Source: Saccharopolyspora sp. SCSIO 74807 (GTDB taxonomy: Bacteria; Actinomycetota; Actinomycetes; Mycobacteriales; Pseudonocardiaceae). Taken from it: DNA of 64,000 nt. A program made the translations under genes and the position numbers. Below, in pieces: positions 16,018 to 34,771 of this stretch. The stretch covers positions 4,123,501-4,187,500 of the forward strand of contig NZ_CP146100.1 in NCBI RefSeq assembly GCF_037023755.1. Direction: 5' to 3'. Under the pieces are notes generated by a model, which searched no databases, was not told the origin of the DNA, and saw nothing but the letters and a program-made list of their open reading frames with translations. How positions within the stretch are numbered: the stretch's first letter is position 1; each line of letters begins with the position of its first letter.

Positions 16018-16158
16018 GCGGTGACGGCATTCGCTTGCGCCGCACCGCCCTACGACGCTCACTCGGTCGAGTAGCCGCTCCGACCTGCGGTGCGAACCGC
16101 GCAGACCTACGCTGACCTGGTCGGTCACCCATGGGTGTCGCTGGGTGAGGGGGCCATT

Positions 16159-17064
16159 GTGGACATTTCTCGGGCTCGTGGGCGGCATGGCCACGAGCAC
16201 GCGGCGGCGCGGCAGCCGGACGTTTCGGCACAACTGCCCGACGCCGCCGCCGTGCTCGCGCGCGCCGCCGGGGAGAACTTCCCCGTCGCCGCCCGCGTCC
16301 TGCCGGGAGATCTGCGCAGGCACCTGATGGCGCTGTACGGCTACTTCCGCCTGGTCGACTACGCGGGCGACGAAGCCCCCGGAAACCGGGAAAGCCTGCT
16401 GGAATTCCTCGAAGCCGACCTCGCGCACGCGTACCGCGGCACCCCGCGGATCCCGTTGCTGCGCGCGCTCGCACCCACCGTGCAGGAATGCGGCATCCCG
16501 CAGGACGTCCTCGTGCGGTTGATCGAAGCGAACCGCCAGGACCAGCACGTGCGCCGCTACCGGACGTTCGCCGAATTGGTGCGGTACTGCGAGCTGTCGG
16601 CCAACCCGGTCGGTGAGTCCGTGCTGCACGTGTTCGGCTGCGCCCGCCCGGACCTGGTGTCGCTGTCCGACCGGGTGTGCACCGCGTTGCAGGTCCTCGA
16701 ACACTGCCAAGACGTGCTCGAAGACCTCCGGCAGGACCGGGTGTACCTGCCGGAGGCGGACCTGGCGCACTTCGGCTGCAGCCTCGACGAACTCGGCACG
16801 TATCCGGCACCGCTGCGCTGGCGCAGGCTGATCCGGTTCCAAGTGGCCCGCGCCGAACGCCTGCTCGACTCCGGCGCCCCGTTGATCGGTCGGCTGCCGG
16901 GCCTGGCGCGGCTGTCCGTGGCCGGGTACGTCGCGGGCGGGCGCGCGACCGCGCAAGCCTTCGCCGGCGCCGGTTACGACCCGATCTCCGTGCACTTGAG
17001 CCCGGCGAAGACGCGCACCGCGGGGGAATGGGCACGACTGCTGCTGACTGGAGGAGCTTGGTGA
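16159..17064 (+). CDS. hpnC: hydroxysqualene synthase HpnC
   Basis: 301-residue trans-isoprenyl-diphosphate-synthase-fold protein. In the HpnCDE route it turns presqualene diphosphate into hydroxysqualene. The two Asp regions are VDYAGDE (67-72) and QDVLED (184-189), followed by DRVYLP, which is typical of HpnC rather than HpnD. GTG 16159 is chosen for GAGGGGG at 16147-16153; an upstream GTG at 16090 lacks such a site. It is the first gene of a seven-gene operon and its stop overlaps the hpnD start (GTGA). Confidence 0.9.
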   Translation: MDISRARGRHGHEHAAARQPDVSAQLPDAAAVLARAAGENFPVAARVLPGDLRRHLMALYGYFRLVDYAGDEAPGNRESLLEFLEADLAHAYRGTPRIPLLRALAPTVQECGIPQDVLVRLIEANRQDQHVRRYRTFAELVRYCELSANPVGESVLHVFGCARPDLVSLSDRVCTALQVLEHCQDVLEDLRQDRVYLPEADLAHFGCSLDELGTYPAPLRWRRLIRFQVARAERLLDSGAPLIGRLPGLARLSVAGYVAGGRATAQAFAGAGYDPISVHLSPAKTRTAGEWARLLLTGGAW

Positions 17065-17924
17065 CCGCGTCGGTGCAAGAGGCATACCGCGAGTGCGAGC
17101 GCATCACCCGCACCCGCGCCCGCAACTTCTCCTACGGGATCCGGCTGCTGCCCGGCCCGAAACGGCGGGCGCTCTCGGCGGTGTACGCGTTCGCCCGGCG
17201 CGTCGACGACATCGGCGACGGCGGACTTCCGATGAACGACAAGCTCCGGCTGCTCGGCCAGGCCCGCTCGGACCTGCACGCGGCCAGCACCCGGTCGGCG
17301 GATCCGGTGCTGGTGGCGCTGGCGGACGCGGCGTCGCGGTCGGCGCTACCGATGCACGCCTTCGACGAACTGATCGACGGTTGCGAGGCCGACGTGCTCG
17401 GCACCCGGTACCGGACGTTCGCGGAGCTGCTGCACTACTGCCGCTGCGTCGCCGGTTCGATCGGCCGCCTCTCGCTGGGCGTGTTCGGCACCCAGGACCG
17501 GGCCGTGGCGGAACGCCGCGCGGACGCGCTCGGCGTGGCGCTGCAACTGACCAACATCCTCCGGGACGTCCGCGAAGACCACGTGGAAGGCCGCGTGTAC
17601 TTGCCGGACGAGGACCTCGAGCGGTTCGGGGTCCGGCTGGAGCCGCACACGCCCGGGCTGCTGCTGCACGAGCAGGACGGGCTCGCGCGGCTGGTGCGGT
17701 TCGAGGTGCAGCGCGCCGAGCAGTGGTACCGCCAGGGCTTCGCGCTGCTGCCGATGCTCGACCGCCGCAGCCGCGCCTGCTGCGCGTCGATGGCCGGGAT
17801 CTACCACGAGGTCCTGCAAGCGATCGCCGCGGCGCCGCTGCGGGCCATGCAGCAGCGGACTTCGCTGACGAGCTGGCAGAAGGCGGGCGTGGCGGCCCGC
17901 TCGATGGCGGGGATGGCGCCGTGA
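17061..17924 (+). CDS. hpnD: presqualene diphosphate synthase HpnD
   Basis: 287 residues, condensing two farnesyl diphosphates to presqualene diphosphate. Both Mg-binding regions are canonical: RRVDDIGD (47-53) and NILRDVRED with Asp169 and Asp173, followed by GRVYLP. Paralogous to HpnC but with the full DDxxD-type first motif. GTG 17061 overlaps the hpnC stop by 4 bases and has GAGGAG 5 bases upstream; the stop overlaps hpnE in the same way. Confidence 0.92.
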   Translation: MTASVQEAYRECERITRTRARNFSYGIRLLPGPKRRALSAVYAFARRVDDIGDGGLPMNDKLRLLGQARSDLHAASTRSADPVLVALADAASRSALPMHAFDELIDGCEADVLGTRYRTFAELLHYCRCVAGSIGRLSLGVFGTQDRAVAERRADALGVALQLTNILRDVREDHVEGRVYLPDEDLERFGVRLEPHTPGLLLHEQDGLARLVRFEVQRAEQWYRQGFALLPMLDRRSRACCASMAGIYHEVLQAIAAAPLRAMQQRTSLTSWQKAGVAARSMAGMAP

Positions 17925-19294
17925 GCCGGCACGTGCTGGTGGTCGGGGGCGGTCTCGCCGGGATCACCGCCGCGCTGCGGTGCGCCGACAGCGGGTACGA
18001 GGTGACCCTGGTGGAGACGCGAGCGCGGCTCGGTGGCGCCGCGAGTTCGTTCCAGCGCGGAGACTTGGACGTCGACACCGGGCAGCACGTCTTCCTGCGC
18101 TGCTACAGCGCGTACGCCGCGCTGCTGCGCAGGCTCGGCGTGCTGGACGAGGTGCGGGTGCAGCCTCGCTTCCGGGTGCCGGTGCTCGAGCCGTTCCGGG
18201 CCTGCTCGGTGCTGCGGCGCTGGGACCTGCCCGCACCGGCGCACCTGGCTCCGGCGTTGCTCGGGCATCCCGCTTTGACGTTGCGGCAGCGGGTGAACGC
18301 CGCGCGCACCGGGATGCGGATGCGGGAGCTCGACCCGGAGGATCCGGCGCTCGACCGGATCAGCTTCGGCGACTGGTTGCGGGAGTGCGGTGAGTCGGCG
18401 CGGGCCGTGGACGCGCTCTGGGCACTCCTGTCGGTTGCCGCGCTCAACGCCGCGCCGGACGAGTCCTCGCTCGCGCTGGCCGCGACGGTGTTCCGCACCG
18501 GCCTGCTCGACGCCGCGGACAGCGGCGACATCGGCGTACCGCTGCGGCCGCTGGCAGAGCTGCACGACGGCGCCGCGCACCGCGAGCTGGCGTCCGCAGG
18601 AGTGCGGGTTCTCCTGCGCACCAAGGCGAACAGCGTGCTGCGAGACGAATCGGGCGAGACGGGCTGGCGGGTCCCGGTGCGCGGGCGCGGAGGCGAGGAA
18701 GTGCTGCGCGCCGACTCCGTGATCGTCGCCGTCCCGCACCAGCACGCCGGCGCACTCCTGTCCGCCCGGCTCTTGCCCGCGGCGGCGGCCTGGTCCGGGC
18801 TGTCGGCAGCGCCGATCGTGAACCTGCACGTGCGCTACGACCGGCCGGTGCTGGCCGAACCGTTCGCGGCGGTCCTCGGCTCGCCGGTGCAATGGCTGTT
18901 CGACCGCACCTCCGCGGCCGGCGTGCGCCGCGGCCAGTACCTGGCGATCTCCCTGTCGGCCGCGCACGAGTACGTCGAGCAGCGCACCGGCGAGCTGCGC
19001 GCGCTGTTCCTGCCGGCGCTGCGCGACCTGCTTCCCCGCGCGCGGCGGGCCGAGGTCCAGGACTTCTTCGTCACCCGCGAACCGCGCGCGACCTTCGCGC
19101 AAGCGCCCGGGACCCGCGATCTGCGACCCGGCGCCGACACCGGGCTGCCCGGGCTGGTGCTGGCGGGCGCGTGGACCGCCACCGGCCTGCCCGACACCCT
19201 GGAAGGCGCTGTGCGCAGCGGGGATCAGGCCGCGCGAGTGGTGCGGGCGACGTTCGACGAAGCCCGCCCGGCGGGCTTGGAGGTGACCCGATGA
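17921..19294 (+). CDS. hpnE: hydroxysqualene dehydroxylase HpnE
   Basis: 457-residue FAD-dependent amine-oxidase/phytoene-desaturase-like protein that reduces hydroxysqualene to squalene. Seen: the N-terminal dinucleotide motif VVGGGLAGITAA with the acidic ETRARLGG following, and the C-terminal FAD segment LAGAWTATGLPDTLEGAVRSG. Overlaps hpnD (GTGA) and the prenyl synthase (ATGA), keeping all three squalene-forming enzymes coupled. Confidence 0.9.
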   Translation: MSRHVLVVGGGLAGITAALRCADSGYEVTLVETRARLGGAASSFQRGDLDVDTGQHVFLRCYSAYAALLRRLGVLDEVRVQPRFRVPVLEPFRACSVLRRWDLPAPAHLAPALLGHPALTLRQRVNAARTGMRMRELDPEDPALDRISFGDWLRECGESARAVDALWALLSVAALNAAPDESSLALAATVFRTGLLDAADSGDIGVPLRPLAELHDGAAHRELASAGVRVLLRTKANSVLRDESGETGWRVPVRGRGGEEVLRADSVIVAVPHQHAGALLSARLLPAAAAWSGLSAAPIVNLHVRYDRPVLAEPFAAVLGSPVQWLFDRTSAAGVRRGQYLAISLSAAHEYVEQRTGELRALFLPALRDLLPRARRAEVQDFFVTREPRATFAQAPGTRDLRPGADTGLPGLVLAGAWTATGLPDTLEGAVRSGDQAARVVRATFDEARPAGLEVTR

Positions 19295-20304
19295 CCACGG
19301 CGACACCCAGCGTGCTGAGCACCTCGCGCCAGCAGGTCGAACCGCAGCTGCGGGCCGCGGTCGGCAGGCTCGACGAGCACACCCGGCGGGTCTGCGAATA
19401 CCACCTCGGCTGGGTGCACGCCGACGGTTCTCCGGACGGGCGCACCGGCAAGGCGCTTCGCCCGGCGCTGGTGCTGCTGTCCGCGCAGGCCATCGGCGGC
19501 CCCGGGCACTGGCCGACGCGCGCGGGCGCGGCCATCGAACTCGTGCACAACTTCTCGCTGCTGCACGACGACTTGATGGACGACGACACCTCCCGGCGGC
19601 ACCGGCCCACCGCTTGGACCGTGTTCGGCCGGCCCTCCGCGCTGCTGGCGGGGGACGCGCTGCTGTCGCTGGCCACCGACGTGCTGGTGGACACGCCTTC
19701 CGCGCACGCGGCGGAAGCGGTGCGGATGCTCGGCGCGGCGACCAGCAGGCTCATCGTCGGCCAAGCCGCCGACCTCGGCTTCGAGCACCGGCACGAAGTG
19801 GCGCTGGACGAGTGCCTGCGCATGGTCGAAGGCAAGACCGCGGCGCTGCTCGGCTGCGCGTGCTCGCTGGGGGCGCTGTGCGCCGGGGGCGACGAAGACG
19901 CCGTGGCGCGGATGCGCTCGTTCGGCATCGAGCTGGGCATGGCCTTCCAACTGGTCGACGACCTGCTGGGGCTGTGGGGCGATCCGGAGACGACCGGCAA
20001 ACCGGTGCTTTCCGACCTGCGGGCGCGCAAGAAGACCGCGCCGATCGTGCACGCCCTGAGCTCGGCGACCCCGGCGGGCGAGCGGCTGCGCCGGATCTAC
20101 CGCGAACCCGCGCGGCTCGTCGGCGAACGCGCCGAGCACGCCGCCGAACTGGTGCGCCAGGCCGGCTCCCGGGAGTGGGCCGAATCCGAGTGCGAGCGCA
20201 GGTTCGACGCCGCGCTCGCGCAACTGCACGCCTGCGGCCGGCACAGCGCGGCCGTCGAATCCCTGACCGAACTCGCGGAGTTCATCGTGCGGAGGCAATG
20301 GTGA
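19291..20304 (+). CDS. polyprenyl (farnesyl/geranylgeranyl) diphosphate synthase
   Basis: 337-residue trans-prenyltransferase supplying the C15 precursor inside the hopanoid operon. The first Asp-rich motif is DDLMD (93-97), preceded by Phe88 at the fifth position upstream. The second is DDLLG (223-227), a variant frequent in actinobacterial prenyl synthases. A short DDxxD first motif with an aromatic at -5 resembles GGPP synthases, yet HpnCD need FPP, so product length is uncertain. ATG 19291 and the stop both overlap neighbouring genes by 4 bases. Confidence 0.87.
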   Translation: MTTATPSVLSTSRQQVEPQLRAAVGRLDEHTRRVCEYHLGWVHADGSPDGRTGKALRPALVLLSAQAIGGPGHWPTRAGAAIELVHNFSLLHDDLMDDDTSRRHRPTAWTVFGRPSALLAGDALLSLATDVLVDTPSAHAAEAVRMLGAATSRLIVGQAADLGFEHRHEVALDECLRMVEGKTAALLGCACSLGALCAGGDEDAVARMRSFGIELGMAFQLVDDLLGLWGDPETTGKPVLSDLRARKKTAPIVHALSSATPAGERLRRIYREPARLVGERAEHAAELVRQAGSREWAESECERRFDAALAQLHACGRHSAAVESLTELAEFIVRRQW

Positions 20305-22226
20305 CCGACCAACTGACCCGATCCCAGCAGCAGCAGACCCAGCCGGACCTGCCCGCGGTAGGCGCCAGGGCGCACGGCGCGCTGCTCGCCGCCCGGGATC
20401 ACCTCTTGTCGTTGCAGCATACCGACGGCTGGTGGAAGGGGGAGTTGGCGACGAACGTGACCATGGACGTCGAGGATCTGCTGATGCGCCAGTTCCTCGG
20501 CATCCGCACGCCGGAGGAGACCGCGCAGGCGGCGCGCTGGATCCGTTCGCAGCAGCGCGAAGACGGGACCTGGGCGAATTTCCACGGCGGGCCCGGCGAC
20601 CTCTCCACCACGGTCGAGGCGTACGTCGCGCTCAAACTCGCAGGCGACGACGTCGAAGCCCCGCACATGACCCTCGCGCGAGCCTGGATCCTGGCGCACG
20701 GCGGCCTCGAATCGACCCGCGTGTTCACCCGGATCTGGCTGGCACTGTTCGGCGAATGGTCGTGGGACGAGCTGCCCGCGATGCCGCCGGAAGTCGTGCT
20801 GCTGCCGAAGTGGGCGCCGCTCAACCTGGCGAACTGGGGTTGCTGGGCGCGCCAGACCGTCGTGCCGCTGACCATCGTGTGCACGCTTGCACCCCGGAGG
20901 GAACTCGGGGTGAGCGTGCGCGAGCTGCGCTCCGGGCGGACACCGCAGCGCTCCTCCGACCCTTGGGACCGGGCGTTCCGCGCGCTCGACGCGGTGTTGC
21001 ACCGGTATCAGCGGTACCCGCTGAAGACGGTGCGGCGGCACGCGATGCGACGCGCTGCGGAGTGGATCATCGCCCGGCAGGAGGCCGACGGCTCGTGGGG
21101 CGGCATCCAGCCCCCTTGGGTGTACTCGCTGCTGGCGCTGCACCTGCTCGACTACCCGCTGGAACACCCGGTGCTGCGGGAGGGCTTGGCCGGGTTGGAG
21201 GGCTTCCTCATCCGGGAACGCACTCCGCAGGGCACGAGCCGCCGGATGGAGGCGTGCCAATCACCGGTGTGGGACACCGTGCTGACCGTGCAGGCGCTGC
21301 ACGACGCCGGTTTGCCCGCCGACCACCCGTCGTTGCGGTGCGCGACCGATTACCTGTTGCGCGAGGAGATCCGGGTGCCCGGTGACTGGGCGGTGCGCAG
21401 GCCCGGGCTCGCTCCGAGCGGGTGGGCGTTCGAGTTCGACAACGACGGCTATCCCGACATCGACGACACCGCCGAAGCGGTGCTCGCGCTCAACCGGGTC
21501 GAGCACGGCAGACCGCAGGAGGTGCACGCGGCCATCGAACGCGGGCTGGCCTGGATGCGCGGCATGCAGTCCCGAGACGGTGGCTGGGCAGCGTTCGACG
21601 CGGACAACACCAGCAGGCTTGCTACCCGGCTGCCGTTCTGCGACTTCGGGGAAGTGATCGACCCGCCCTCAGCGGACGTCACCGCGCACGTCGTAGAAGC
21701 GATGAGCTTGCTCGCCGACCGCGAGGATCCCGCGGTGCGCGCGGGCGTGCGGTGGCTGCTGGCGAACCAGGAGCGCGGCGGCTCGTGGTTCGGCCGCTGG
21801 GGCGCCAACCACGTTTACGGCACGGGCGCGGTCGTGCCCGCGCTGGTCGCCGCCGGGGTGCCCGCCAACCACCCGGCGCTGCGGCGGGCGGCGGATTGGC
21901 TGGAGGAGCACCAGAACGCCGACGGCGGCTGGGGAGAGGACATGCGTTCCTACACCGATGCGCGGTGGATCGGGGTGGGCACCTCGACCGCCTCGCAGAC
22001 CGGATGGGCGCTGATGGCGTTGCTGGCGCTGGGCAGGCACGCCAGCGAAGCGGTGCGCAACGGCGTGGAATACCTGGCCACGAGCCAGCGCGCGGACGGC
22101 ACCTGGGACGAGCCGCAGTTCACCGGAACCGGATTCCCCGGCGACTTCTTCATCAACTACCACCTGTACCGGCTGATCTTCCCGCTGACCGCGCTCGGCC
22201 GCTACGAGCAGGCGGTGAACCGGTGA
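20301..22226 (+). CDS. shc: squalene-hopene cyclase
   Basis: 641 residues, membrane-associated class II triterpene cyclase converting squalene to hopene/hopanol. The protonating motif DIDDTA is at 386-391 (Asp386-x-Asp388-Asp389). Several QW repeats are visible: QREDGTW (86-91), QEADGSW (260-266), QSRDGGW, QERGGSW, QNADGGW and QRADGTW. Length is normal for bacterial Shc. Coupled by GTGA overlaps to the prenyl synthase before it and hpnG after it. Confidence 0.95.
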   Translation: MTDQLTRSQQQQTQPDLPAVGARAHGALLAARDHLLSLQHTDGWWKGELATNVTMDVEDLLMRQFLGIRTPEETAQAARWIRSQQREDGTWANFHGGPGDLSTTVEAYVALKLAGDDVEAPHMTLARAWILAHGGLESTRVFTRIWLALFGEWSWDELPAMPPEVVLLPKWAPLNLANWGCWARQTVVPLTIVCTLAPRRELGVSVRELRSGRTPQRSSDPWDRAFRALDAVLHRYQRYPLKTVRRHAMRRAAEWIIARQEADGSWGGIQPPWVYSLLALHLLDYPLEHPVLREGLAGLEGFLIRERTPQGTSRRMEACQSPVWDTVLTVQALHDAGLPADHPSLRCATDYLLREEIRVPGDWAVRRPGLAPSGWAFEFDNDGYPDIDDTAEAVLALNRVEHGRPQEVHAAIERGLAWMRGMQSRDGGWAAFDADNTSRLATRLPFCDFGEVIDPPSADVTAHVVEAMSLLADREDPAVRAGVRWLLANQERGGSWFGRWGANHVYGTGAVVPALVAAGVPANHPALRRAADWLEEHQNADGGWGEDMRSYTDARWIGVGTSTASQTGWALMALLALGRHASEAVRNGVEYLATSQRADGTWDEPQFTGTGFPGDFFINYHLYRLIFPLTALGRYEQAVNR

Positions 22227-22825
22227 GCGGTGATCGGCTGCTGATCTGCGCTGCGCTGCGAACCGAAGCCGTGGCATTGCGCGGCGCGTGCGACCGGGCG
22301 CGCGTGCTGCGCACCGGGCTCGGACCGCGCCGGAGCTCCCGGCGCCGCAACGCCGACGCGGTGGCCGGCTGTGGCGCGCTGGCCGTAGTCGGTCTCGCGG
22401 GCGGGCTGGGTGAAGTACCCAGCGGCGGTGTGGTCGTCGCCGACGAGGTCCGGGATGCGCACGGCAGCACGGCCCTGCCGGACGCGGGATCGTTGGCGGC
22501 TCGGCTCGACCGCGCCGGATTCGCGGTGTGGCGCGGGCCGATCACGACGACCGACCACATCGTCGGCGGCGGCGAGAAGTCGGCGCTGGCCGCTACCGGC
22601 GCGCTGGCCGTCGACATGGAATCGGCCGCGCTCGCCCGGCTGGCCGGACGCGGACTGCGCGCGGTCGTGCGCGTGGTCGTGGACACCCCGAGCGAGCCGC
22701 TGCTGCGCCCGCGCACGCCGTACCGCGCGTGCCGGGCGCTGCTGCGGCTGCGCCGCCTCACACCCGCGGTGGCGGAGTGGGCGGCCGACCCGGAACGCGC
22801 GCCCGCGGTGGCGCACCGGGACTGA
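22223..22825 (+). CDS. hpnG: adenosylhopane nucleosidase/phosphorylase HpnG
   Basis: 200-residue nucleoside-phosphorylase-fold protein that removes adenine from adenosylhopane, giving ribosylhopane derivatives. Seen: the VDMESAALARLA purine/ribose-binding motif and an N-terminal CAALRTEAVAL start. GTG 22223 overlaps the shc stop (GTGA). The Arg-rich stretch near residue 50 (RRSSRRR) is unusual. It precedes hpnH although it acts after it. Confidence 0.88.
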   Translation: MSGDRLLICAALRTEAVALRGACDRARVLRTGLGPRRSSRRRNADAVAGCGALAVVGLAGGLGEVPSGGVVVADEVRDAHGSTALPDAGSLAARLDRAGFAVWRGPITTTDHIVGGGEKSALAATGALAVDMESAALARLAGRGLRAVVRVVVDTPSEPLLRPRTPYRACRALLRLRRLTPAVAEWAADPERAPAVAHRD

Positions 22826-22860
22826 TCCGCAAACACCAGAAGCAGTCAGGAGGTGCAGCC

Positions 22861-23862
22861 ATGGGCATTCCGATGCGCCAGGCCGCTCGCGTCGGCGCCT
22901 ACCTAGTGCGGCAGAAGCTCGCGGGCCGAAAGAAGTTCGCGCTCACCCTGGAGCTGGAGCCGTTGTTCGCCTGCAACCTCGCCTGCGCGGGGTGCGGCAA
23001 GATCCAGCACCCGGCGAGCGTCCTCAAGCAGCGGATGCCGGTCGACCGGGCGCTGGCCGCGGTCGAGGAATGCGGTGCCCCGGTGGTCTCCATCGCAGGC
23101 GGCGAGCCGCTGATGCACCCCGAGATCGAGGTGCTGGTCGACGAGCTGGTCAAGCGCAAGAAGTTCGTCTACCTGTGCACCAACGCGCTGCTGATGCCGC
23201 GCAAGATCGACAAGTTCACGCCGTCCCCGTACTTCTCGTGGGCGGTGCACGTCGACGGGCTGCAAGAGCGCCACGACGCCTCGGTGTGCAAGGAGGGCGT
23301 GTTCGCGCAAGCGGTCGACAACATCAAGGACGCGCAGCAGCGCGGGTTCCGGATCACCACGAACAGCACGTTCTTCAGCACCGACACGCCGTCCTCGGTG
23401 ATCGAGGTGCTGGACTACCTCAACAACGAGCTCGACGTGGACCAGATGATGCTCTCGCCCGCCTACGCCTACGACAAGGCGCCGGACCAGGACCACTTCC
23501 TCGGCGTCACCGAGACCCGGGAGCTGTTCAAGAAGGTTTTCGCCGATGGCAGGCGCCGCAAGTGGCGGTTCAACCACTCGCCGAAGTTCCTGGACTTCCT
23601 GGAGGGCAAGGTCGACTTCGGCTGCACCGCGTGGGCCATCCCGTCCTACTCGCTATATGGCTGGCAGCGGCCCTGCTACCTGATGGCCGACGGCTACGCG
23701 CAGAGCTACCGGGAGCTGTTGGAGGAGACGGACTGGGAGGCTTACGGTCGCGGGCGCGACTCGCGCTGCGCCAATTGCATGGCGCACTGCGGCTACGAGC
23801 CGACGGCCGTGATGGCCACGATGGGTTCACTGCGCGAGTCCATACGGGCGCTGCGCGGGTGA
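22861..23862 (+). CDS. hpnH: adenosylhopane synthase HpnH (radical SAM)
   Basis: 333-residue radical-SAM enzyme joining 5'-deoxyadenosine to hopene to make adenosylhopane, the entry to side-chain-bearing hopanoids. The cluster motif is Cys38-x3-Cys42-x2-Cys45 (ACNLACAGC), and the SAM-binding IAGGEPL segment follows. AGGAGGTG precedes ATG 22861, 35 bases after hpnG. Genes for later side-chain steps (hpnO, hpnP and similar) are not in the window. Confidence 0.93.
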   Translation: MGIPMRQAARVGAYLVRQKLAGRKKFALTLELEPLFACNLACAGCGKIQHPASVLKQRMPVDRALAAVEECGAPVVSIAGGEPLMHPEIEVLVDELVKRKKFVYLCTNALLMPRKIDKFTPSPYFSWAVHVDGLQERHDASVCKEGVFAQAVDNIKDAQQRGFRITTNSTFFSTDTPSSVIEVLDYLNNELDVDQMMLSPAYAYDKAPDQDHFLGVTETRELFKKVFADGRRRKWRFNHSPKFLDFLEGKVDFGCTAWAIPSYSLYGWQRPCYLMADGYAQSYRELLEETDWEAYGRGRDSRCANCMAHCGYEPTAVMATMGSLRESIRALRG

Positions 23863-23945: not shown

Positions 23946-24605
23946 ATGCAGAAGCCCTCGCAGGTGGTTCACCTCGACGCGCTTTCCGCGCACCTCTGGC
24001 ACGCGGCCAAACACCTCGGCGAGACGGTGATCGCGCCGCTTGCGCTGTTCTATGTCCTGTTCAACCTCACCGGCCTGACCGGCGGTCTCATCGCCGCGCT
24101 CGTCTGGGGAGTGGGCGCCGTCGCGGTGCGAGCGGTACTGCGGGTGAAGATCCCGATGGTGCTGCTGCTGACCACCGGGATCCTGGTGGTCCGCACCGTC
24201 GTCGGGTTCGCGACCGGCAGCTCGTTCCTGTACTTCCTGGAACCGAGCCTGCAGAACTTCTTCGTGGCGTTGTTGTTCCTGGGTTCGCTGCTGTTCGAGC
24301 GGACGTTGATCGCCAAGCTCGCCGACGACTTCTGCGTGCTTCCACCGTCGCTGATCGGCAACGCGCGGGTGCAGAGGTTCTTCCGGCGGGTGTCGCTGCT
24401 GTGGGCGCTGGTGTTCACGATCAACGGGTTCACCACGCTGTGGGCGCTGGCGCAGGCGACGATCGGGCACTTCCTGCTGGCCAGCACGGCGGGCTCGTTC
24501 AGCCTCGTGGCGGTGGCCGCGGTGGCGTCGGTGTGGTGGCTGCGCCGGGAGCTGCACGGCGAGGGGATCACCTTGCGCTTCTCCCGCAAGGCCGTGCCCG
24601 CCTGA
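23946..24605 (+). CDS. VC0807-like integral membrane protein
   Basis: 219 residues with about six hydrophobic segments (around 25-45, 50-65, 70-85, 95-120, 155-175, 180-200). The sequence with FFVALLFLGSLLFERTLIAKLADDF resembles the VC0807/intracellular-septation-like family; function unknown. It follows hpnH by 83 bases, which include a small GGGGCC-AAC-GGCCCC hairpin, so it may be read with the hopanoid operon or separately. A clear terminator closes it. Confidence 0.65.
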   Translation: MQKPSQVVHLDALSAHLWHAAKHLGETVIAPLALFYVLFNLTGLTGGLIAALVWGVGAVAVRAVLRVKIPMVLLLTTGILVVRTVVGFATGSSFLYFLEPSLQNFFVALLFLGSLLFERTLIAKLADDFCVLPPSLIGNARVQRFFRRVSLLWALVFTINGFTTLWALAQATIGHFLLASTAGSFSLVAVAAVASVWWLRRELHGEGITLRFSRKAVPA

Positions 24606-24656: not shown

Positions 24657-25376
24657 TCAGCCGAAGCGGCGCGCGAGCAAGCGGAAGGTTCCCGGCAGGG
24701 CGCCGCGCACCCGCGAAGCCAGGCCCAGCCAGGACGGCACGAACACCTCCGGCGTTTCCCGCTCGATGGCGGTCAACAGCACGCGGGCCACCTGATCCGG
24801 CGGGATCGGGCGCGGGAACCGGCGGGTGTACGCGCCGCGCCGGTCGAAGAAGCCGGTGCGCACCGCGCCCGGCAGCACGGTGGTGACCGGCACGCCCTCG
24901 GCGCGGATGCTGTCGGCGAACGCCCGCAGCCCGGCCTTCGTCGCCGCGTAGGCGGCCTCGTGGTGCACGCCGACGGCCGCGATGGACGAGACGAACGCGA
25001 CCTGCCCGCCGCGATGGCTCAGTTCCGGCATCGCGGCCCTGGTCAGCTCCATCGGAGCGGTCAGGTTCAGCGCTACCAGGTCGCTGACCTGCCCGGCGGT
25101 CATCGCGCCCAGCGGGCCATGCCAGCCCGCCCCGGCGTTGTTGATCAGCAGCTCGACTCCGGCGGCCGCATCGGCGACCCGGGCCAGCTCGTCCCGAACG
25201 GTCAGGTCGGCGCGCAGCGGGCGGCCACCGGTGCGGCGCGCCAGCGCGCCGAGCCGGTCGGCGTCGCGCCCCACCAGCAGCGGCTCGCACCCGGCGGCGG
25301 CCAGCTCGATCGCCAGCGCCGCTCCGATGCCCGAGGAACCCCCGGTGATCAGGGCGCGCCGCGGAGGCCACCTCAT
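24657..25376 (-). CDS. SDR-family oxidoreductase
   Basis: 239 residues. TGGSSGIG (11-18), LINNAGAGW and YAATK are the classical SDR cofactor and catalytic motifs; the C-terminal end is hydrophobic/basic (WLGLASRVRGALPGTFRLLARRFG), which may hold it near the membrane and is seen in SDRs acting on lipids (inference). Its ATG overlaps the DMT gene's stop by 4 bases, making it the third gene of the glycosyltransferase/acyltransferase operon. Confidence 0.85.
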   Translation of the reverse strand: MRWPPRRALITGGSSGIGAALAIELAAAGCEPLLVGRDADRLGALARRTGGRPLRADLTVRDELARVADAAAGVELLINNAGAGWHGPLGAMTAGQVSDLVALNLTAPMELTRAAMPELSHRGGQVAFVSSIAAVGVHHEAAYAATKAGLRAFADSIRAEGVPVTTVLPGAVRTGFFDRRGAYTRRFPRPIPPDQVARVLLTAIERETPEVFVPSWLGLASRVRGALPGTFRLLARRFG

Positions 25377-26275
25377 CCGGACCCGGAATTCCGGGCCGCG
25401 ATCCGGCGCAGGTGCTCGCCGCGCCGGGTCAGCACCCAGATGCCGACCAGCAGCAGCACCGCCGCGAGCACTTCACCTGCCAGTGCGTACGGGCTCGCCA
25501 CGACCCGCTCGCCGAGCCAGTTCACCCCGATCGCGATGCCCACCAGCGGATCGACCGCGGTGATCACCGCCAGTGCCGGGGAGATGAACCGGCCCTGCTG
25601 GAAGGTGTTCTGGCTGAGCAGGAACCCCACCGGCCCCAGCGCGCACACGACGTAGAGGGTGGGGTGGCCGAACGGTTCGGCGAGGCCGCCCTGCCGGATC
25701 TGCCCGGCCACGACCTTGATCAATCCGGCGGTGACGCCGTAGAGCACGCCTGTCGCCAGGGCCAGCGCCAGCACCCGGAGCTCACCGCGGAACCGCCCGG
25801 CGGCGAGCAGGCAACCCAGCACGATCAGCACCAGCACCGCCGCGAGCGGGAACACTCCGGAGCCGGTGAACCCCTCACCTTGCCCGCTCGGCCGCGCCAG
25901 CAGCAGGAACACCGCCAACCCGACGGCGACCGCGAGCGCGCCGAGCACCAGGACCCGGTCCAACCGGCGGTGCGCCATCCAGGCCGCGAAGACCGCGCCG
26001 AACAGCACCGCGGTGACCAGCAGCGGCTGCACCAGCACCAGCGGACCGAACGCGAGCGCCACGACCTGCAAGGACAGCCCGACGATCACGGTGCCGATGC
26101 TCAGCAGCCAGATCGGTTTGCGCACCAGTTGCCACAGCAGCCGGGGATCCAGCGTGCGGGTGGTGGGCACCTGCTTGGTCGCGCGTTGCTGCACGGCGCT
26201 GGCCAGCCCGAACCCGGCGGCGCCCGCCAGCGCGGCGGGCACCGCGATGAACAACTGGCTCCCGGTGGAGGTCAC
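25373..26275 (-). CDS. DMT-superfamily multi-pass membrane protein
   Basis: 300 residues with about nine or ten hydrophobic helices, in the drug/metabolite-transporter (EamA/NIPA-like) pattern: TKQVPTTRTLDPRLL between helices 1 and 2, and a repeat-like second half. A role as transporter or flippase for the lipid made by the upstream enzyme is possible but inferred only from the operon. GTG 26275 overlaps the upstream stop (GTGA) after GGAGGG. Confidence 0.75.
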   Translation of the reverse strand: MTSTGSQLFIAVPAALAGAAGFGLASAVQQRATKQVPTTRTLDPRLLWQLVRKPIWLLSIGTVIVGLSLQVVALAFGPLVLVQPLLVTAVLFGAVFAAWMAHRRLDRVLVLGALAVAVGLAVFLLLARPSGQGEGFTGSGVFPLAAVLVLIVLGCLLAAGRFRGELRVLALALATGVLYGVTAGLIKVVAGQIRQGGLAEPFGHPTLYVVCALGPVGFLLSQNTFQQGRFISPALAVITAVDPLVGIAIGVNWLGERVVASPYALAGEVLAAVLLLVGIWVLTRRGEHLRRIAARNSGSG

Positions 26276-28650
26276 GCGCCCTCCTGCGCGCCGAGCCGCA
26301 GTGCGGCGAAGGCGCTCGGGAGCTGGTCGGCGAGCTTGTCCACGTCGGGCAGCAGCGCCGCGTCGGTGGTGAGCGCGACTCCGACGGTTCTTCCCCACCC
26401 GATGGTCCCGATCGCCAGCGCCATGCCATCGGCCAGCGGCAAGACCGGGTACACGGTGCGCAGCAGCGCTCCGGCGATGTGCACCGGCGTCCGGTGCCCC
26501 GGCATGATCGAGACGATCGCCTGGAAGAAGTTGCGTCCGTAGATCCTGCGGCAGACCCAGCGGTGCAGCGGAGCGGGCAGCAGGCGCAGACCCCGCAACA
26601 CGGCTTCGCTGGCCTGCGGCTGCCCGCGGTGCTGCGCGCGGTCGAGCCGGGCGGCGACTTCGGCGAGCCGTCGCCGCGGGGACATGGGGCCGATGGGCAG
26701 GTCGACGGTCACCGCGACCGCGTGGTTGCCGAAGTCTTCGGTGCCGGGACGGGCCTTCCTGGGCACCATGGTGCGGAAGTTCCGCTGGTGTGTGTTGTTC
26801 TCGTCCAAGCGGTGCAGCGCTTCGGCCACCATGCCGAGCAGCAACGCGCTGCGGGATACGCCGTTCGCGCGGGCTTCGGCCTCGACCTCGGCGGCGTCGA
26901 GCTCTTTCCAGGCGAAGCGGCGTGCTCCGGTGCTGCGTCCGCCGAGGCCGCCGCGCGGGGCCGGGCCTGCGGTGACCAGGCTCAGCATGCCGCGCAACAC
27001 CGCCGTGACGTACCGCAGGCGTGGAATCGCGGGCCGGGACTGCTCCGGCAGATCGGGGACCTCGTCGCACAGCAGCCGCAGCAGCGTCGAGGTCATCACC
27101 AACCCGTCGCCGAGCGAGTGGTGCATCTTCACCAGCAGCGCCGAGTCGCCGGAGCCGGGCCGGTGCAGCACGGCCATCTCCCATGGTGGGCGGTCGGTGG
27201 GCAACGGCGTGCTGAAGAACTCGCGCTCCGCGGACTCCTGATCGTCGTGCTCGCCGAGCGTGATCCGCCGCAGGTGCTGCTCAGGTGCGAGTCGCCGGAC
27301 CGGCACCCAGTGCGGTTCGCGGTGTCGGCGGGTGACCAGCCGCTTGCTGACCATGGGCAGTTCGGGCGCACGGGCGGCGATCCGTTCGCTGACCCGCGCG
27401 GCGAGCTCGGCGCCCCATTCCGCGCCGGCCGCCGGTCCGCGCAGCGACAACACGGCGCCGGTCTGCTGTGCAACCTGCGGGGTCGTGACGTGCACGAAGA
27501 ACGTGTCCTGAGCGCGCATCCGCTCGGGCACGGCGGGATCCAGGTTCGCCATATCGGCCACCTGGTCGGCGAACTCGCCGGTGTCCCGCAGGTGCCGGAG
27601 CATCCGCTGCTCGGCGTTGTGCAGCTCGCCGGGCTCGGTGGCGAGCCGGTCCAGCGCCTGCGCCAGCGCGGGCTCGTCGTCGCAGAGTTCGGCCAGACCG
27701 GCGCGTTCCATCAGCTCGGCGTTGGCGCGGCCGTGCCCGGCGATGGGTTCGAACATGAGGACCGGGCGGGCGCAAGCGAGTGCTTCCAGCGCGGTGGCGC
27801 CCCCGGCATTGGTCACCACGACGTCGGCCGCCGCGGTGCGCGTGGCCATGTCGTCGACCCAGCCCAGCGGGTCGATCCGGGAGTCGCGCTCGGCACGGCG
27901 CAGCAACCGCTCGCGCAAGGTGTCGTTGTGCCCGCACACGACCACGACCTGATCGGTCCCGGCGCGCAGCGCTGCCTCGACGGCGCGGTCGACGGAGCCG
28001 AAACCCAGTGAGCCGCACGAGATCAGCACCACGAAACCGGCCTGCGGGAGACCGCAGGCGCGGCGTGCTTCGGCCTTGTCCCGCGGGTGGAACGCGGCGA
28101 CGACGGGCGGTGCGCTGACGGTGTTGACCGCCGCCGGTTCGGCGAGATCGGCTGCCCCTGCGCTGACCTCGCTCATGGCGTAGTGCCGGTCGATCGCGGA
28201 GTAGACCCAGAACGGGTGCGGGGCGAAGTCGGAGATCACCGCCGCGACCGGAGTCCGCAGTTCGCCGCGGGCGCGCAACCAGGCCAGACCGGCGGTGCCC
28301 ATGGGGTAGGTGGACACGATCAGGTCCGGGCGTTCGTCGGCCAGCAGCGGGCGCAGCCTGCGGCCCGCCCAGGCACCGACGAAGCGGCGGCAGCCGTTGG
28401 CGAACCAGCGTTGCCGCCACAGCGCGGCGTAGAAGAAGTCGTAGAGCCATGGCGTGGACTGCACGTTGGTCACGTAGATCCGGCCGAACGTTCGCGGCAC
28501 CCAAGGCCCCATCGCCCGCAGTGCGTCGAGCCAGGACACCTCGCAGCCCGGCCACGATCGCCGGGCGGCCTTCTCGACGGCTCGCGCGGTGGCGTTGTGC
28601 CCTTCCCCGATGGTGGCGCTGACCAGCAGCAGGCGGCGCGGCTCAGTCAC
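26272..28650 (-). CDS. fusion of an MGDG-synthase-like glycosyltransferase and a WS/DGAT acyltransferase
   Basis: 792 residues, two enzymes in one frame. Residues 1-365 look like a GT28/MGDG-synthase glycosyltransferase: GEGHN (15-19), STYPMGT, ISDFAPHPFWVY and the nucleotide-sugar-binding TNAGGATALEAL (280-291). Residues about 375-792 look like wax-ester-synthase/diacylglycerol acyltransferase: PPWEMAVL, the catalytic HHSLGDG (510-516) and FGNHAVAVTVDLP. No stop or frameshift separates them. GTG 28650 has AAGGAG upstream. The first part would move a sugar onto a lipid acceptor, the second transfers an acyl chain from acyl-CoA; a coupled route to an acylated glycolipid is inference. First gene of an operon with a DMT protein and an SDR. 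Confidence 0.85.
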   Translation of the reverse strand: MTEPRRLLLVSATIGEGHNATARAVEKAARRSWPGCEVSWLDALRAMGPWVPRTFGRIYVTNVQSTPWLYDFFYAALWRQRWFANGCRRFVGAWAGRRLRPLLADERPDLIVSTYPMGTAGLAWLRARGELRTPVAAVISDFAPHPFWVYSAIDRHYAMSEVSAGAADLAEPAAVNTVSAPPVVAAFHPRDKAEARRACGLPQAGFVVLISCGSLGFGSVDRAVEAALRAGTDQVVVVCGHNDTLRERLLRRAERDSRIDPLGWVDDMATRTAAADVVVTNAGGATALEALACARPVLMFEPIAGHGRANAELMERAGLAELCDDEPALAQALDRLATEPGELHNAEQRMLRHLRDTGEFADQVADMANLDPAVPERMRAQDTFFVHVTTPQVAQQTGAVLSLRGPAAGAEWGAELAARVSERIAARAPELPMVSKRLVTRRHREPHWVPVRRLAPEQHLRRITLGEHDDQESAEREFFSTPLPTDRPPWEMAVLHRPGSGDSALLVKMHHSLGDGLVMTSTLLRLLCDEVPDLPEQSRPAIPRLRYVTAVLRGMLSLVTAGPAPRGGLGGRSTGARRFAWKELDAAEVEAEARANGVSRSALLLGMVAEALHRLDENNTHQRNFRTMVPRKARPGTEDFGNHAVAVTVDLPIGPMSPRRRLAEVAARLDRAQHRGQPQASEAVLRGLRLLPAPLHRWVCRRIYGRNFFQAIVSIMPGHRTPVHIAGALLRTVYPVLPLADGMALAIGTIGWGRTVGVALTTDAALLPDVDKLADQLPSAFAALRLGAQEGA

Positions 28651-29446: not shown

Positions 29447-30064
29447 TCACGCGCACATCGAAACCACCGCCCTGTCCAATGCTCGCCGGTGCAGCGGGTC
29501 GAAGTGGTGGTGCAGGTCGGCGGCGAGCACCGAGGCCGCCACCCCGACCCGGCACGGAGTGTTCGGCGCCCGCACCCGCTCGGTCGCCTTGAGCTGCCGC
29601 ACCGCCTCGTCGCTGATCCGTTCCAGCTCCCGGCGCACCTGGCCCAGGTCGGGGCGTTCACCCGGGCGCGACTCGGGGTGCGCGTCCCACCGGGCGTGCA
29701 GGCCGCGCTGCACGTCCTTGCCCGCTTCGATCTGGTCGGTGAAGAAGCGGACGGCTACGCCCGGATCGAGTCCGTTGTCCGCGGCGAGCTCGGACACCTC
29801 GCCCAGCACCCGTCGCTCGCGTTCCGGATCGGCGATGGGTTTTCCGGTGCCGTACTTGGCGGCGGCGACCTCGTCCGCCAGCGCCAGCCGTTGCGCGGCG
29901 AGGTCCACCAGCGGGCCGAGATCGGTCGTCGCGGACTGCGCGGCGACCGAAGCCGGACCGACGACGGGCGCCCCGGCGTCCGGTGTCGCGGTTGCGGCCG
30001 GTGCCGTGCCTGCGGCCACGGCGCCGATGATCGAAGTTGCCAGCAACGTGCGTCGCATCGTCAT
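29447..30064 (-). CDS. secreted chorismate mutase (AroQ gamma type)
   Basis: 205 residues with a signal peptide: MTMRR, a hydrophobic core and an Ala-rich cleavage zone near residue 26 (TATPDA). The mature part is all-helical with AAQRLALADEVAAAKYGTG (Arg and Lys active-site residues), ERRVLGEV and a two-Cys C-terminal part (NTPCRVG, SMCA) that may form the disulfide known from the mycobacterial secreted enzyme. It converts chorismate to prephenate, here outside the membrane; why this is useful is unknown for the family. ATG 30064 follows a GGGGAG-type site. Confidence 0.85.
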   Translation of the reverse strand: MTMRRTLLATSIIGAVAAGTAPAATATPDAGAPVVGPASVAAQSATTDLGPLVDLAAQRLALADEVAAAKYGTGKPIADPERERRVLGEVSELAADNGLDPGVAVRFFTDQIEAGKDVQRGLHARWDAHPESRPGERPDLGQVRRELERISDEAVRQLKATERVRAPNTPCRVGVAASVLAADLHHHFDPLHRRALDRAVVSMCA

Positions 30065-30365
30065 GACTTCTCCCCTCGCGGTTCTGCTTCGCGGAAAAGT
30101 CTGCCGTGCACCCGCGTTCGAGCCGGGGCGGACTCGCCGCGGCGTGTCGGCCGGATGCCTCGGCGAACCGAATGCGCAGGTGAGCCAGGATATCCGCGAC
30201 CGAATCAAGTGCCGCGAGTCCGTTGTGGACAGAGCGTTCGCAAGCGCCCCCGGCCGGGCGGTTGCAGGGCGGCGCGGTTGAGCACCCGCCCGGCCGAGGG
30301 GTTGCGTTCGCGCGCCTACGCGCGCGGTCCCATCGCGAGCCCCGCAGCGCGAGGCGGTCGCGAGA
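30065..30365. other. 301-base intergenic region
   Basis: Lies between the chorismate mutase start and the end of the P450-operon SDR. It has the hairpin at 30251-30296 and a one-mismatch palindrome copy TCCGTTGTGGA (30219-30229). No gene is supported. Confidence 0.45.
30251..30296. terminator. terminator-like hairpin
   Basis: 11-bp inverted repeat CGGCCGGGCGG / CCGCCCGGCCG with a 24-base loop, about 70 bases past the SDR stop on the minus strand. Likely the end of the P450 operon. Confidence 0.45.
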
Positions 30366-31136
30366 TCAGCTGGACAGGTAGCCGCCGTCGGCGGCCAGCG
30401 CGTGCCCGGTCACGAACGACGAATCGTCCGAGCACAGCCACAGGCTGGCCGCGGCGACCTCCTCCGGCCGCCCGAACCGGCCGAACAGGCTCAGCCGCGG
30501 CGCCAGGTCCTGCTCGCGGCGTCCGGTGCTGTCCATCGAGTACCGGATCATCGGCGTGTCGATCGCGCCGGGGCAGACTGCGTTGACCCGGATGCCGCGC
30601 GCGGCGTTCTCCAGCGACGCGACCTTGGTCAGCCCGATCACGCCGTGCTTGGCCGCGGTGTAGATCGCCTGGTTGAGCTGCGGCCGGTAGGAGTTCACCG
30701 AGCCGATGTTCACGATCGAACCGGGACCGTCCTGCCGCAGCATCTGCTTGATCTCGTGCTTGAGGCACAGCGCCACGGACTTCAGGTTCACCGCCAGGAT
30801 CCGGTCCAGGTCGTCCTCGGCGAGCTCGGCGACGGTATTGGCGTCCGGGGCGACCGCGGCGTTGTTCACCGCGCAGTCCAGCCGCCCGTACCGCTCGACC
30901 GCGGTCTCGACCATCGCGCGCACCTGATCGGAGTCGCCGACGTCGACGCGCAGGAACGACGCCCGGCCGCCACCGGCGACGATCTTGTCCACCGTGGACT
31001 CACCTGCGCGTTGCTCGCGGTCGGCGACCAGCACCGACGCGCCTTGCGCCGCCAGCAGCTCGGCGGTTGCCGCGCCCATGCCCATCGCCGCTCCGGTGAC
31101 CGCCGCGACCTTGCCCGCGAGTGCGTCGCTGCCCAT
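30366..31136 (-). CDS. SDR-family alcohol dehydrogenase
   Basis: 256 residues; the cofactor motif reads TGAAMGMG (Ala/Met instead of the usual Ser/Gly positions), with VNNAAVAP, IGSVNS and the YTAAK catalytic pair. It is the third gene of the P450-ferredoxin reductase-SDR operon, 11 bases after the reductase, so it probably oxidises the alcohol made by the P450, as CamD does in the camphor pathway (inference by analogy). ATG 31136 follows GGAGGAAC. Confidence 0.85.
   Translation of the reverse strand: MGSDALAGKVAAVTGAAMGMGAATAELLAAQGASVLVADREQRAGESTVDKIVAGGGRASFLRVDVGDSDQVRAMVETAVERYGRLDCAVNNAAVAPDANTVAELAEDDLDRILAVNLKSVALCLKHEIKQMLRQDGPGSIVNIGSVNSYRPQLNQAIYTAAKHGVIGLTKVASLENAARGIRVNAVCPGAIDTPMIRYSMDSTGRREQDLAPRLSLFGRFGRPEEVAAASLWLCSDDSSFVTGHALAADGGYLSS
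30988..30998. repeat. TCCANNGTGGA palindrome copy (in coding sequence)
   Basis: TCCACCGTGGA inside the SDR gene at 30366-31136; perfect at all eight arm positions. Confidence 0.35.
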
Positions 31137-31147
31137 GTTCCTCCTGC

Positions 31148-32299
31148 TCAGAACGGGTTTTCGGGATCGCGCAGGGATTCCGGATCGGGAGTCGCTCCCG
31201 CGCCGATGGCGTTGCGCGCCGGAACCAGCTGCTTCGGCCGGTTCACGCCCAGGTGCGCGGTCAGCCGCCCTTGCGGGGACAGCCAGGCGGCGCCCCACCG
31301 CTCGGAGTCCGCGCCGCGCAGCACCAGCGTGTCGGCGGCGCTGTGGTGCCCGACGTACTGGAGCTTGCGGCCGAACTGGTCGCTCCAGAAGTAGGGGACC
31401 GGATCGTGCTCGGGAATGCCGGTGCCGAGGATCTGCGCGACCACCGTTTCCGGAGCGGTGCGCGCCTCGTCCCAGTGCTCGACCCGCAACCGCGCGCCCG
31501 AGCGCGGCGACCAACGCGCCGCCACGTCGCCCACCGCGTACACCCCGGGAACTCCGGTGCGCAGGTGTTCGTCGACGAGCACGCCGCGGTCCAGCTCGAC
31601 GCCGGAGCCAGCCAGCCACGCCGTGTCCGGGCGCACGCCGACTCCGGTGACCACCACGTCGGCGTCCAGGTGCCCGCCGCCGGTCAGCGCCACCCCGCCG
31701 GAGGTGATCGCGTCGACGCCGGTGCCGAGCCGCAGGTCGACCTCCGCCCACCACGGCCGCATCCGCTGCCCGACCTGCTCGCCCAGCGCACCGAGCGGGA
31801 CCGGTGCCGCTTCCACGCAGGTCACCGAGCAGCCCCGGGCCAGTGCGGCGGTGGCCACTTCCGCACTGATCCAGCTCGCGCCGACCAGCACGACCCGCGC
31901 TCCCGCCCGCAGCCGTTCCCGCAGCAGCGCCGCGTCGTCGGCGGTGCGCACGACCAGCTGCGGACCGTCGCCGGGAAGCCGCACCGGGCTCGCGCCGGTG
32001 GCGATGACCAGCGCGTCGTAGCCGACGTCGCCGGAATCGGTACCGACCACCCGTTCCGCCGGATGCAGCGATCGAGCCGCTGCGCCCAGCCGGAGATCGA
32101 CCGACAACGCCTCGTAGTCGGTCCGCAACGTGGGGTCGAACTCGTCCCGCAACGCCGCCTTGGTCAGCGGCGGCCGGTCGTAGGGCGCCCGCCGCTCGGC
32201 CGCGAGCAGCACGATCTCGCCGTCGAACCCCTTGCGCCGCAGCAATTCGCAGGTGCGCGCCGCGGCCAGCCCCCCACCGGCGATGACGACCCGGGTCAC
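31148..32299 (-). CDS. ferredoxin-NAD(P) reductase (FAD, BphA4/putidaredoxin-reductase type)
   Basis: 383 residues, passing electrons from NAD(P)H to the P450 ferredoxin. FAD motif VVIAGGGLAAARTCELL, the second dinucleotide motif VVLVGASWISAEVA, VTGVGVRPDTAWL and the FAD segment VYAVGDVA are all in order. GTG 32299 overlaps the P450 stop by 4 bases (GTGA), so the two are co-translated. The matching ferredoxin gene is on the other strand, across the divergent promoter. Confidence 0.9.
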   Translation of the reverse strand: MTRVVIAGGGLAAARTCELLRRKGFDGEIVLLAAERRAPYDRPPLTKAALRDEFDPTLRTDYEALSVDLRLGAAARSLHPAERVVGTDSGDVGYDALVIATGASPVRLPGDGPQLVVRTADDAALLRERLRAGARVVLVGASWISAEVATAALARGCSVTCVEAAPVPLGALGEQVGQRMRPWWAEVDLRLGTGVDAITSGGVALTGGGHLDADVVVTGVGVRPDTAWLAGSGVELDRGVLVDEHLRTGVPGVYAVGDVAARWSPRSGARLRVEHWDEARTAPETVVAQILGTGIPEHDPVPYFWSDQFGRKLQYVGHHSAADTLVLRGADSERWGAAWLSPQGRLTAHLGVNRPKQLVPARNAIGAGATPDPESLRDPENPF

Positions 32300-33525: not shown

Positions 33526-33558
33526 GCTGCTGGGACCTCCTATTGCATCAACCCCGCT

Positions 33559-33600
33559 GTTGACCTGATAATGGTTATACTAGATATGCCGGTTGTCAAC
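33559..33600. promoter_or_regulatory. divergent P450/ferredoxin promoter with candidate operator
   Basis: AT-rich island bounded by GTTGAC and GTCAAC. TTGACC (33560-33565, plus) and TTGACA (33594-33599, minus) could serve as -35 boxes for the two directions. Inside is ATAATGGTTAT (33568-33578), which carries the ATGGT core shared with three other promoters of the region. Confidence 0.5.
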
Positions 33601-33652
33601 GGTTCGCACGAAGCCGGGGGAGTCGGCGCCACCTCGACGAGGAGGAGAAACC

Positions 33653-33844
33653 ATGCGCGCGCGGGTCGATCCGAACCACTGCCAGGGGCACGGGCTGTGC
33701 CAGATGAGCGCCCCGAACGTCTTCGCGTTGCGCGAGGAGGACGGCACCGCCTACGTGCTCGAAGAACAGGTCCCGGCCGAGTTCGCCGACGAGGCCGTCG
33801 AAGGCGCGGACTCCTGCCCCGAGCGCGCGATCACGGTCGACTGA
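33653..33844 (+). CDS. P450-type ferredoxin with CxxHxxC motif
   Basis: 63-residue electron carrier, probably [3Fe-4S] because the second cluster Cys is replaced: Cys10-x2-His13-x2-Cys16 and Cys55-Pro. This variant motif is typical of actinobacterial ferredoxins encoded next to P450s. ATG 33653 follows GGAGGAG; a longer frame from 33593 lacks such a site. Its stop overlaps the crotonase ATG by one base (TGATG). Divergent from the P450 over 127 bases. Confidence 0.9.
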   Translation: MRARVDPNHCQGHGLCQMSAPNVFALREEDGTAYVLEEQVPAEFADEAVEGADSCPERAITVD

Positions 33845-34611: not shown

Positions 34612-34771
34612 TCCCGGCGGCGTCGGGCATCGCAGCGCCCTCGGCGGCCGCAGGTGCAGTGATCCCGGTGTCCGCAGGCGTCGCAGCCAGAGTCGCCGCG
34701 AACCGGACCGCCGCGCGAACTCCGGTGGTGCGCGCAGGCACCGCAGCGGCACCGGCGCAGCCGCGGCAGTA

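Follow-up and report, generated by a model that had tools for sequence, protein, structure and literature searches.

One protein encoded by Saccharopolyspora sp. SCSIO 74807 joins an MGDG-synthase-like glycosyltransferase (GT) to a WS/DGAT acyltransferase in a single chain, and probably tailors C35 hopanoids as a bifunctional enzyme, yielding an acylated glycosyl-hopanoid, with a DMT-family membrane protein as its putative flippase and an SDR supplying the acceptor. This reading draws on what was observed—domain content, motifs, the operon, linkage to and co-occurrence with HpnH and squalene-hopene cyclase (SHC), and different combinations of these parts in other families with hopanoids—and from these observations we infer the acceptor, the donor sugar, the position of the acyl chain, the order of steps, the role of the flippase and the reaction of the SDR.

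Hopanoids, the sterol counterparts of bacteria, give rise to molecular fossils that are in wide use. Here, we describe the fusion gene and its setting, follow it and its parts through the host family and the wider class, and weigh the readings that these data allow.

Methods

The window, to which all coordinates refer, is the whole stretch of 64,000 nucleotides analysed (contig NZ_CP146100.1, positions 4,123,501 to 4,187,500); the source genome is 6.69 Mb in size. Host-family counts come from an even draw of 200 genomes, which are related and thus not independent of one another. The class sample comprised 296 genomes, 68 of them with SHC; outside the host family, neighbours were scanned at 40 SHC loci (some on short contigs or representing second SHC copies) and at four further loci. 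Trees were built from 49 GT halves and 29 WS/DGAT halves, with midpoint rooting for drawing. Labels such as G090, L054, f20 and g5 are our own handles; guided in part by named relatives, we take family f20 to be Streptomyces, genus g25 Saccharomonospora and genus g27 Amycolatopsis.

Results

The fusion protein and its relatives

The fusion gene lies on the minus strand at 26272..28650, begins with GTG and encodes 792 residues, as read from the open frame, Pfam and NCBIfam; the single MGDG-synthase-like and WS/DGAT polypeptide described in the initial annotation was thus confirmed, down to its exact coordinates. The Pfam search which that annotation had proposed returned two GT and two WS/DGAT domains, all above curated cut-offs. 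In the GT half (residues 1-365; 27556..28650, minus strand) these are MGDG_synth (residues 18-161, 5.6e-19) and Glyco_tran_28_C (residues 207-343, 1.4e-10); in the WS/DGAT half (residues 373-792; 26275..27534, minus strand) they are WS_DGAT_cat (residues 378-582, 4.3e-17) and WS_DGAT_C (residues 641-784, 3.5e-20). The motifs reported earlier are all present in the translated frame: GEGHN and TNAGGATALE in the first half and, in the second, HHSLGDG, the HHxxxDG motif at residues 510-516.

Among 33 aligned fused homologues, Pfam recovered MGDG_synth and WS_DGAT_C in all 33, WS_DGAT_cat in 28 and Glyco_tran_28_C in 25, and every homologue retained G15, G17 and H18 of the GT half and H510, H511, D515 and G516 of the WS/DGAT half. 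Another set of 20 homologues kept the first histidine of HHxxxDG in 19, the remaining row (L054) having D at H510. A protein 99% identical to ours is present in a Saccharopolyspora record (L118).

With both PF06925 and PF04101 above their gathering scores and a GxGHN motif, the GT half falls within the MGDG/DGDG synthase-like family; WS_DGAT_cat, WS_DGAT_C and HHxxxDG together mark the other half as a WS/DGAT O-acyltransferase domain. The best NCBIfam matches of the GT half are diglucosyl-diacylglycerol synthase models, to which it is a relative only, scoring 138.5 bits against the equivalog cut-off of 500 (NF010135), and profile searches place it closest to the solved structures 9wde (a processive DAG glucosyltransferase) and 4wyi (MGD1). 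UgtP and MGD1, which share its sequence family and motifs, are separate proteins acting on diacylglycerol. For the acyltransferase half, the closest solved structures are 6chj and 7nxg. Known WS/DGAT members make triacylglycerol or wax esters and share HHxxxDG and the C-terminal domain with this half, but here the domain is fused to a GT and the protein scores 193 bits against a cut-off of 310 for the family model TIGR02946. None of the seven NCBIfam matches of the fusion protein (E up to 0.01) is an HpnI model.

That the GT half stands nearest to diacylglycerol-acting enzymes was counted against the hopanoid reading. The same matches favour an acylated glycosyl-diacylglycerol (acyl-MGDG-like) as the product, with the GT using diacylglycerol as UgtP and MGD1 do, the WS/DGAT half acylating the sugar, and the hopanoid linkage reflecting a shared membrane function only. 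We regard this as clearly unlikely: the match to the diacylglycerol-enzyme model is far under its cut-off, and the distribution of the fusion and of its parts, given below, also speaks against it.

An operon facing a hopanoid cluster

The fusion gene shares four bases (GTGA) with the gene of the DMT-family membrane protein (25373..26275, minus strand), which in turn shares four (ATGA) with the SDR gene (24657..25376, minus strand), and the three-gene unit previously proposed from these overlaps is upheld. The DMT protein, the proposed flippase, scores above the cut-off of NF038012 and has eight hydrophobic stretches above a simple threshold; the fusion protein has none, a contrast that would suit an enzyme at the membrane periphery and a carrier within the membrane. 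The SDR, placed by Pfam and by its co-occurrence with hopanoid genes, is the proposed ribosylhopane reductase.

On the plus strand, a hopanoid cluster converges on this operon. It consists of HpnC (16090..17064; TIGR03464, 265 bits), HpnD (17048..17924; TIGR03465, 285 bits), HpnE (17921..19294; TIGR03467, 397 bits), a prenyl diphosphate synthase (19300..20304; no model over its cut-off), SHC (20289..22226; TIGR01507, 751 bits), an HpnG-like phosphorylase (22220..22825; TIGR03468, 64.5 bits, below the cut-off of 187) and HpnH, the adenosylhopane synthase (22834..23862; TIGR03470, 520 bits); all starts except those of HpnE and HpnH are approximate. A plus-strand gene for a VC0807-family membrane protein (23946..24605) stands tail to tail with the SDR gene, their ends 51 bases apart; such genes are frequent near fused loci, though not constant (16/28 and 26/41 in two sets).

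The fusion and HpnH in the host family

The 200 host-family genomes include 82 with HpnH and at least 64 with the fusion, the latter a lower bound from the matches listed; three of the 64 (G138, G168 and G009) show two adjoining matches in one open frame. In a second set, of named records, 41 of the 51 loci scanned were fused, and a search among other actinobacteria, as suggested at the outset, added one genome of another family. The initial annotation had named a sequence error joining adjacent genes, or a fusion confined to this genome, as outcomes that would overturn it; the fused homologues contradict both, and they rule out sequencing error or a chance join of two genes as the origin of the frame.

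HpnH is present in 63 of the 64 fused genomes. Judged from the coordinates of the listed matches, the two genes share a contig in 60 of these 63, lying within 5 kb of each other in 48 and within 12 kb in 57. This co-occurrence and tight linkage argue against diacylglycerol as the acceptor. Conversely, an acyltransferase match is present in 80 of the 82 genomes with HpnH, as part of the fusion in 63 and as a separate protein in 17, the two with none being the incomplete genomes G172 and G167 (87% complete). The list of genomes with WS/DGAT alone (18 genomes) is a mix of two lineages. Genome G090 (93% complete) has the fusion and no HpnH, and G122 (90% complete) has the acyltransferase half and the SDR and no HpnH. 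We counted these discordant incomplete genomes (G090, G122, G167 and G172, together with G016) against the hopanoid reading, as we did Saccharomonospora, which has no working GT half.

Three genera in which HpnH is patchy (g5, g16 and g43) allow a closer comparison, and there the fusion tracks HpnH in all 18 genomes listed. This comparison took genera with HpnH both present and absent in the listed rows, minus g3 and g20, whose HpnH-less rows include the disagreeing G090 and G122, with G167 disagreeing the other way.

Across 69 fused loci from 17 sampled genera (two sets of 28 and 41, with some genomes in both and some misses explained by short contigs), a DMT gene was a neighbour in 65 (27 + 38), the SDR in 66 (28 + 38), SHC in 62 (25 + 37) and HpnH in 56 (23 + 33). 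In the window, cynS lies on the opposite side of the operon; it was seen at four of the 69, two from records named Saccharopolyspora and two from g1, the window's genus. Almost all of the fused genomes seen come from a single family, as they would if the linkage were inherited synteny without functional meaning. We disfavour this explanation as very improbable, since one flank has been kept and the other has not, the fusion follows HpnH inside the three mixed genera, and the same parts occur in different arrangements in other families.

In several lineages, then, the genes of the unit are found within hpn clusters or next to them (not in f20, where the parts lie elsewhere or are absent), and the fusion co-occurs with HpnH, which places the unit with hopanoid tailoring. 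Because it belongs with the hopanoid pathway, a C35 hopanoid, and not diacylglycerol, is its most likely acceptor. The original proposal of a unit making an acylated glycolipid likely had the right class of product but missed the hopanoid context.

The SDR and its proposed ribosylhopane step

Among the matches listed for 28 genomes, SDR profile scores form two classes, at ≥209 bits and ≤180 bits; six host-family genomes lacking HpnH score 193–204 bits. At a subfamily threshold of 220 bits, chosen after the scores had been seen and dropping those six, 81 of the 200 host-family genomes have both SDR and HpnH, two have the SDR only (G016, 74% complete, and G122), one has HpnH only (G167) and 116 have neither; when the six are counted, the figures are 81 with both, eight with the SDR only and one with HpnH only. 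At E 1e-110, an HpnO-type aminotransferase was found in none of the 200 host-family genomes, with a query that matches 37 of the 296 class genomes. This query takes its name from the position of the gene behind HpnH in f20; curated models give it none.

The enzyme that converts ribosylhopane to bacteriohopanetetrol (BHT) is not established, according to the accessible part of a 2025 paper (PMC12583986). Given this, and because the SDR co-occurs with HpnH in a family where no HpnO-type aminotransferase was found, the SDR is a good candidate for the ribosylhopane-to-BHT reductase. The initial annotation had taken the SDR as part of the glycolipid-making unit; it is a member of the operon, but more likely belongs to hopanoid side-chain synthesis.

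A strict anti-correlation of SDR and HpnO was also considered and is ruled out by genomes of f13, f15 and f33, which can carry both, and by G297 (91% complete), which has HpnH and neither of the two. These cases, along with the f20 genomes that have HpnH and HpnO without the SDR (5/10), were counted against the proposed role of the SDR. Among solved structures the protein matches general SDRs best; the 60 listed include ribitol dehydrogenases and 17-beta-hydroxysteroid dehydrogenases, which proves nothing about substrate.

The same parts in other families

Only one genome outside the host family (G411, family f39) showed the fusion in the 296-genome class sample, in the complete arrangement with HpnH and SHC; none was seen in f20. 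The separate parts are found more widely. Genes of the SDR subfamily lie near HpnH in f13, f15 (1/3 loci), f18 (5/5), f37, f39 and at one f19 locus; most of the other f19 loci with HpnC or HpnD have the SDR close to these genes. GT and DMT genes stand near HpnC in f18 (4/5 loci) and f14, a separate WS/DGAT gene stands near HpnC in f24 and f30, and in one f30 genome (G245) HpnH is followed by the SDR, a VC0807 gene and a DMT gene. Such separate GT, acyltransferase, DMT and SDR genes near hopanoid genes are a further point against a diacylglycerol product.

Elsewhere the parts lie apart from hopanoid genes. The SHC-neighbourhood scan found none of the four at eleven f20 loci or the f33 locus; the SDR adjoins a GT homologue away from the hopanoid cluster in five of ten f20 genomes, four of these with a DMT gene, and f33 has a similar GT/SDR set, likewise away from the cluster. 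The f19 GT homologues that could be placed among the matches listed are not beside SHC, and outside the host family WS/DGAT is near SHC in two of ten genomes, among the matches listed. A Streptosporangiales bin (L089) holds the fusion, a second GT and a DMT gene, with no hopanoid gene within 9 kb. The f20 and f33 pairs, the f19 GTs, the WS/DGAT genes away from SHC and L089 were all counted against the hopanoid reading.

History of the fusion

Fused GT halves group together in the GT tree (22 rows, 94/80, just below the star mark), with separate Amycolatopsis GTs nested inside; a single clade (7 rows, 100/99) unites the unfused GTs of f18, f20 and f33 that are linked to hopanoid genes or to the SDR. 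The WS/DGAT tree likewise brings the fused halves together (20 rows, 97/96), and Saccharomonospora falls inside this group, close to Prauserella. Judged from these sequences, the fusion appears to be old and to have been undone at least twice: Saccharomonospora has evidently lost most of the GT half, and one Amycolatopsis group has evidently split the protein. After these fissions, parts have stayed with hopanoid genes, a point in favour of the hopanoid reading. At two Saccharomonospora-type loci the acyltransferase, next to the SDR and HpnH, retains no more of the GT than a stub (profile positions 95-143 or 100-143). In the Amycolatopsis-type genomes (L057, L061 and L106-L110) the GT stays with its DMT gene. 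In L064, the one Amycolatopsis-type genome whose WS/DGAT locus was examined, this gene and SHC are about 5 kb apart, and the SDR and a VC0807 gene are there too; the protein falls in a different clade (5 rows, 100/98), common to the hopanoid-linked proteins of f24 and f30, which also includes L183 and L184, whose fetched stretches show no hopanoid gene.

Since Saccharomonospora has no working GT half, glycosylation and acylation need not form one ordered path. The halves might instead act on different molecules, the GT making a glycosyl-hopanoid and the WS/DGAT an acyl-hopanoid or BHT ester, with no doubly modified product; this alternative shares the acceptor of the preferred reading, and the likelihoods of the two are not exclusive. 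It fits the Saccharomonospora-type loci, where only the acyltransferase, with the SDR, is kept beside HpnH, and the f18 clusters with GT and DMT, in which no WS/DGAT gene lies within the fetched 20 kb. We nevertheless think it somewhat unlikely, as the fusion itself, across the genera sampled, argues for coupling.

Discussion

In the preferred reading, a bifunctional hopanoid-tailoring enzyme, the SDR would provide the acceptor, in all likelihood as the reductase that turns ribosylhopane into BHT. With a nucleotide sugar as donor, the GT-B half would glycosylate a side-chain hydroxyl of BHT or a precursor, and the WS/DGAT half would esterify that sugar, or the polyol, with an acyl chain from acyl-CoA (or acyl-ACP). 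The product would be an acylated glycosyl-hopanoid (acylated glycosyl-bacteriohopanetetrol), which the DMT protein may flip across the membrane. More tentatively, we suggest a stricter version as a possibility, in which the SDR fills the gap between ribosylhopane and BHT as the reductase, a single polypeptide, the fusion, both acylates and glycosylates BHT, and the sterol-glycolipid-like product is flipped to the outer leaflet by the DMT protein.

The nearest known system is formed by HpnI, HpnK and HpnJ, which lead from BHT to BHT-N-acetylglucosamine, BHT-glucosamine and BHT cyclitol ether (PMC12583986). That pathway resembles the proposed role of the fusion in glycosylating BHT and in its genes usually lying in hopanoid clusters; however, in the accessible part of the same paper HpnI is a separate glycosyltransferase and no acyltransferase step is named, in contrast to the fused GT and WS/DGAT described here. 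An acylated glycosyl-hopanoid is already known in the N-acylglucosaminyl-BHT of Alicyclobacillus acidocaldarius, although this is an N-acyl amide from a Firmicute, and the available text of the source (PMC8537080) names no enzymes for it. The accessible portions of the open-access literature contained nothing on this arrangement linking hopanoids with wax ester synthase, with GT and acyltransferase, with a flippase, with acylated forms or with an SDR.

A GT–acyltransferase fusion accompanied by a transporter and a reductase beside hopanoid genes suggests an undescribed way of decorating hopanoids. The nearly one-to-one occurrence of the SDR with HpnH, in a family without detected HpnO, makes the conversion of ribosylhopane to BHT directly testable. 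If it is indeed made by one fused enzyme, an acylated glycosyl-hopanoid would correspond, in bacteria, to acylated steryl glucosides and might serve as a biomarker for the host actinobacterial family.

Gene content around the fusion gene

A VC0807-family membrane protein (window 23946-24605) was present at 42 of the 69 loci with a fused gene. Beyond cynS, on the other flank of the fusion operon, consecutive minus-strand genes (29447-35570) encoded a chorismate-mutase-domain protein, SDRs, a ferredoxin-reductase-like protein and a cytochrome P450. A second, divergently transcribed glycosyltransferase (GT) gene of the same family flanked the fusion gene at a set of Pseudonocardia and Actinomycetospora loci (L096, L097, L098, L101, L102, L103, L111-L115, L117 and L121). 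At two Saccharomonospora-type loci (L063:8595-9866 and L123:8800-10434), the GT had decayed to a stub still fused to the acyltransferase, which retained an intact HHxxxDG motif and was adjoined by the SDR and HpnH genes. Matches to SHC, HpnH, GT, WS/DGAT and SDR were each split across several frames in Pseudonocardia sp. CNS-139 (L120), which may reflect assembly errors. Of the 10 genomes checked from f20 (taken to be Streptomyces), five had GT and SDR genes grouped at a site apart from the hopanoid cluster (L231-L235), and in four of these five a DMT gene was part of the group.

Co-occurrence of the SDR subfamily and HpnH

The SDR subfamily, which includes the window protein (24657-25376, minus strand), shares a conserved FFxRRGxxYxRxxPxP-like tail (alignment A4). 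Scored as present at a 220-bit threshold, chosen after the scores had been seen, this subfamily tracked HpnH across the Pseudonocardiaceae: 81 of the 200 sampled genomes had both, 116 had neither and three were discordant.
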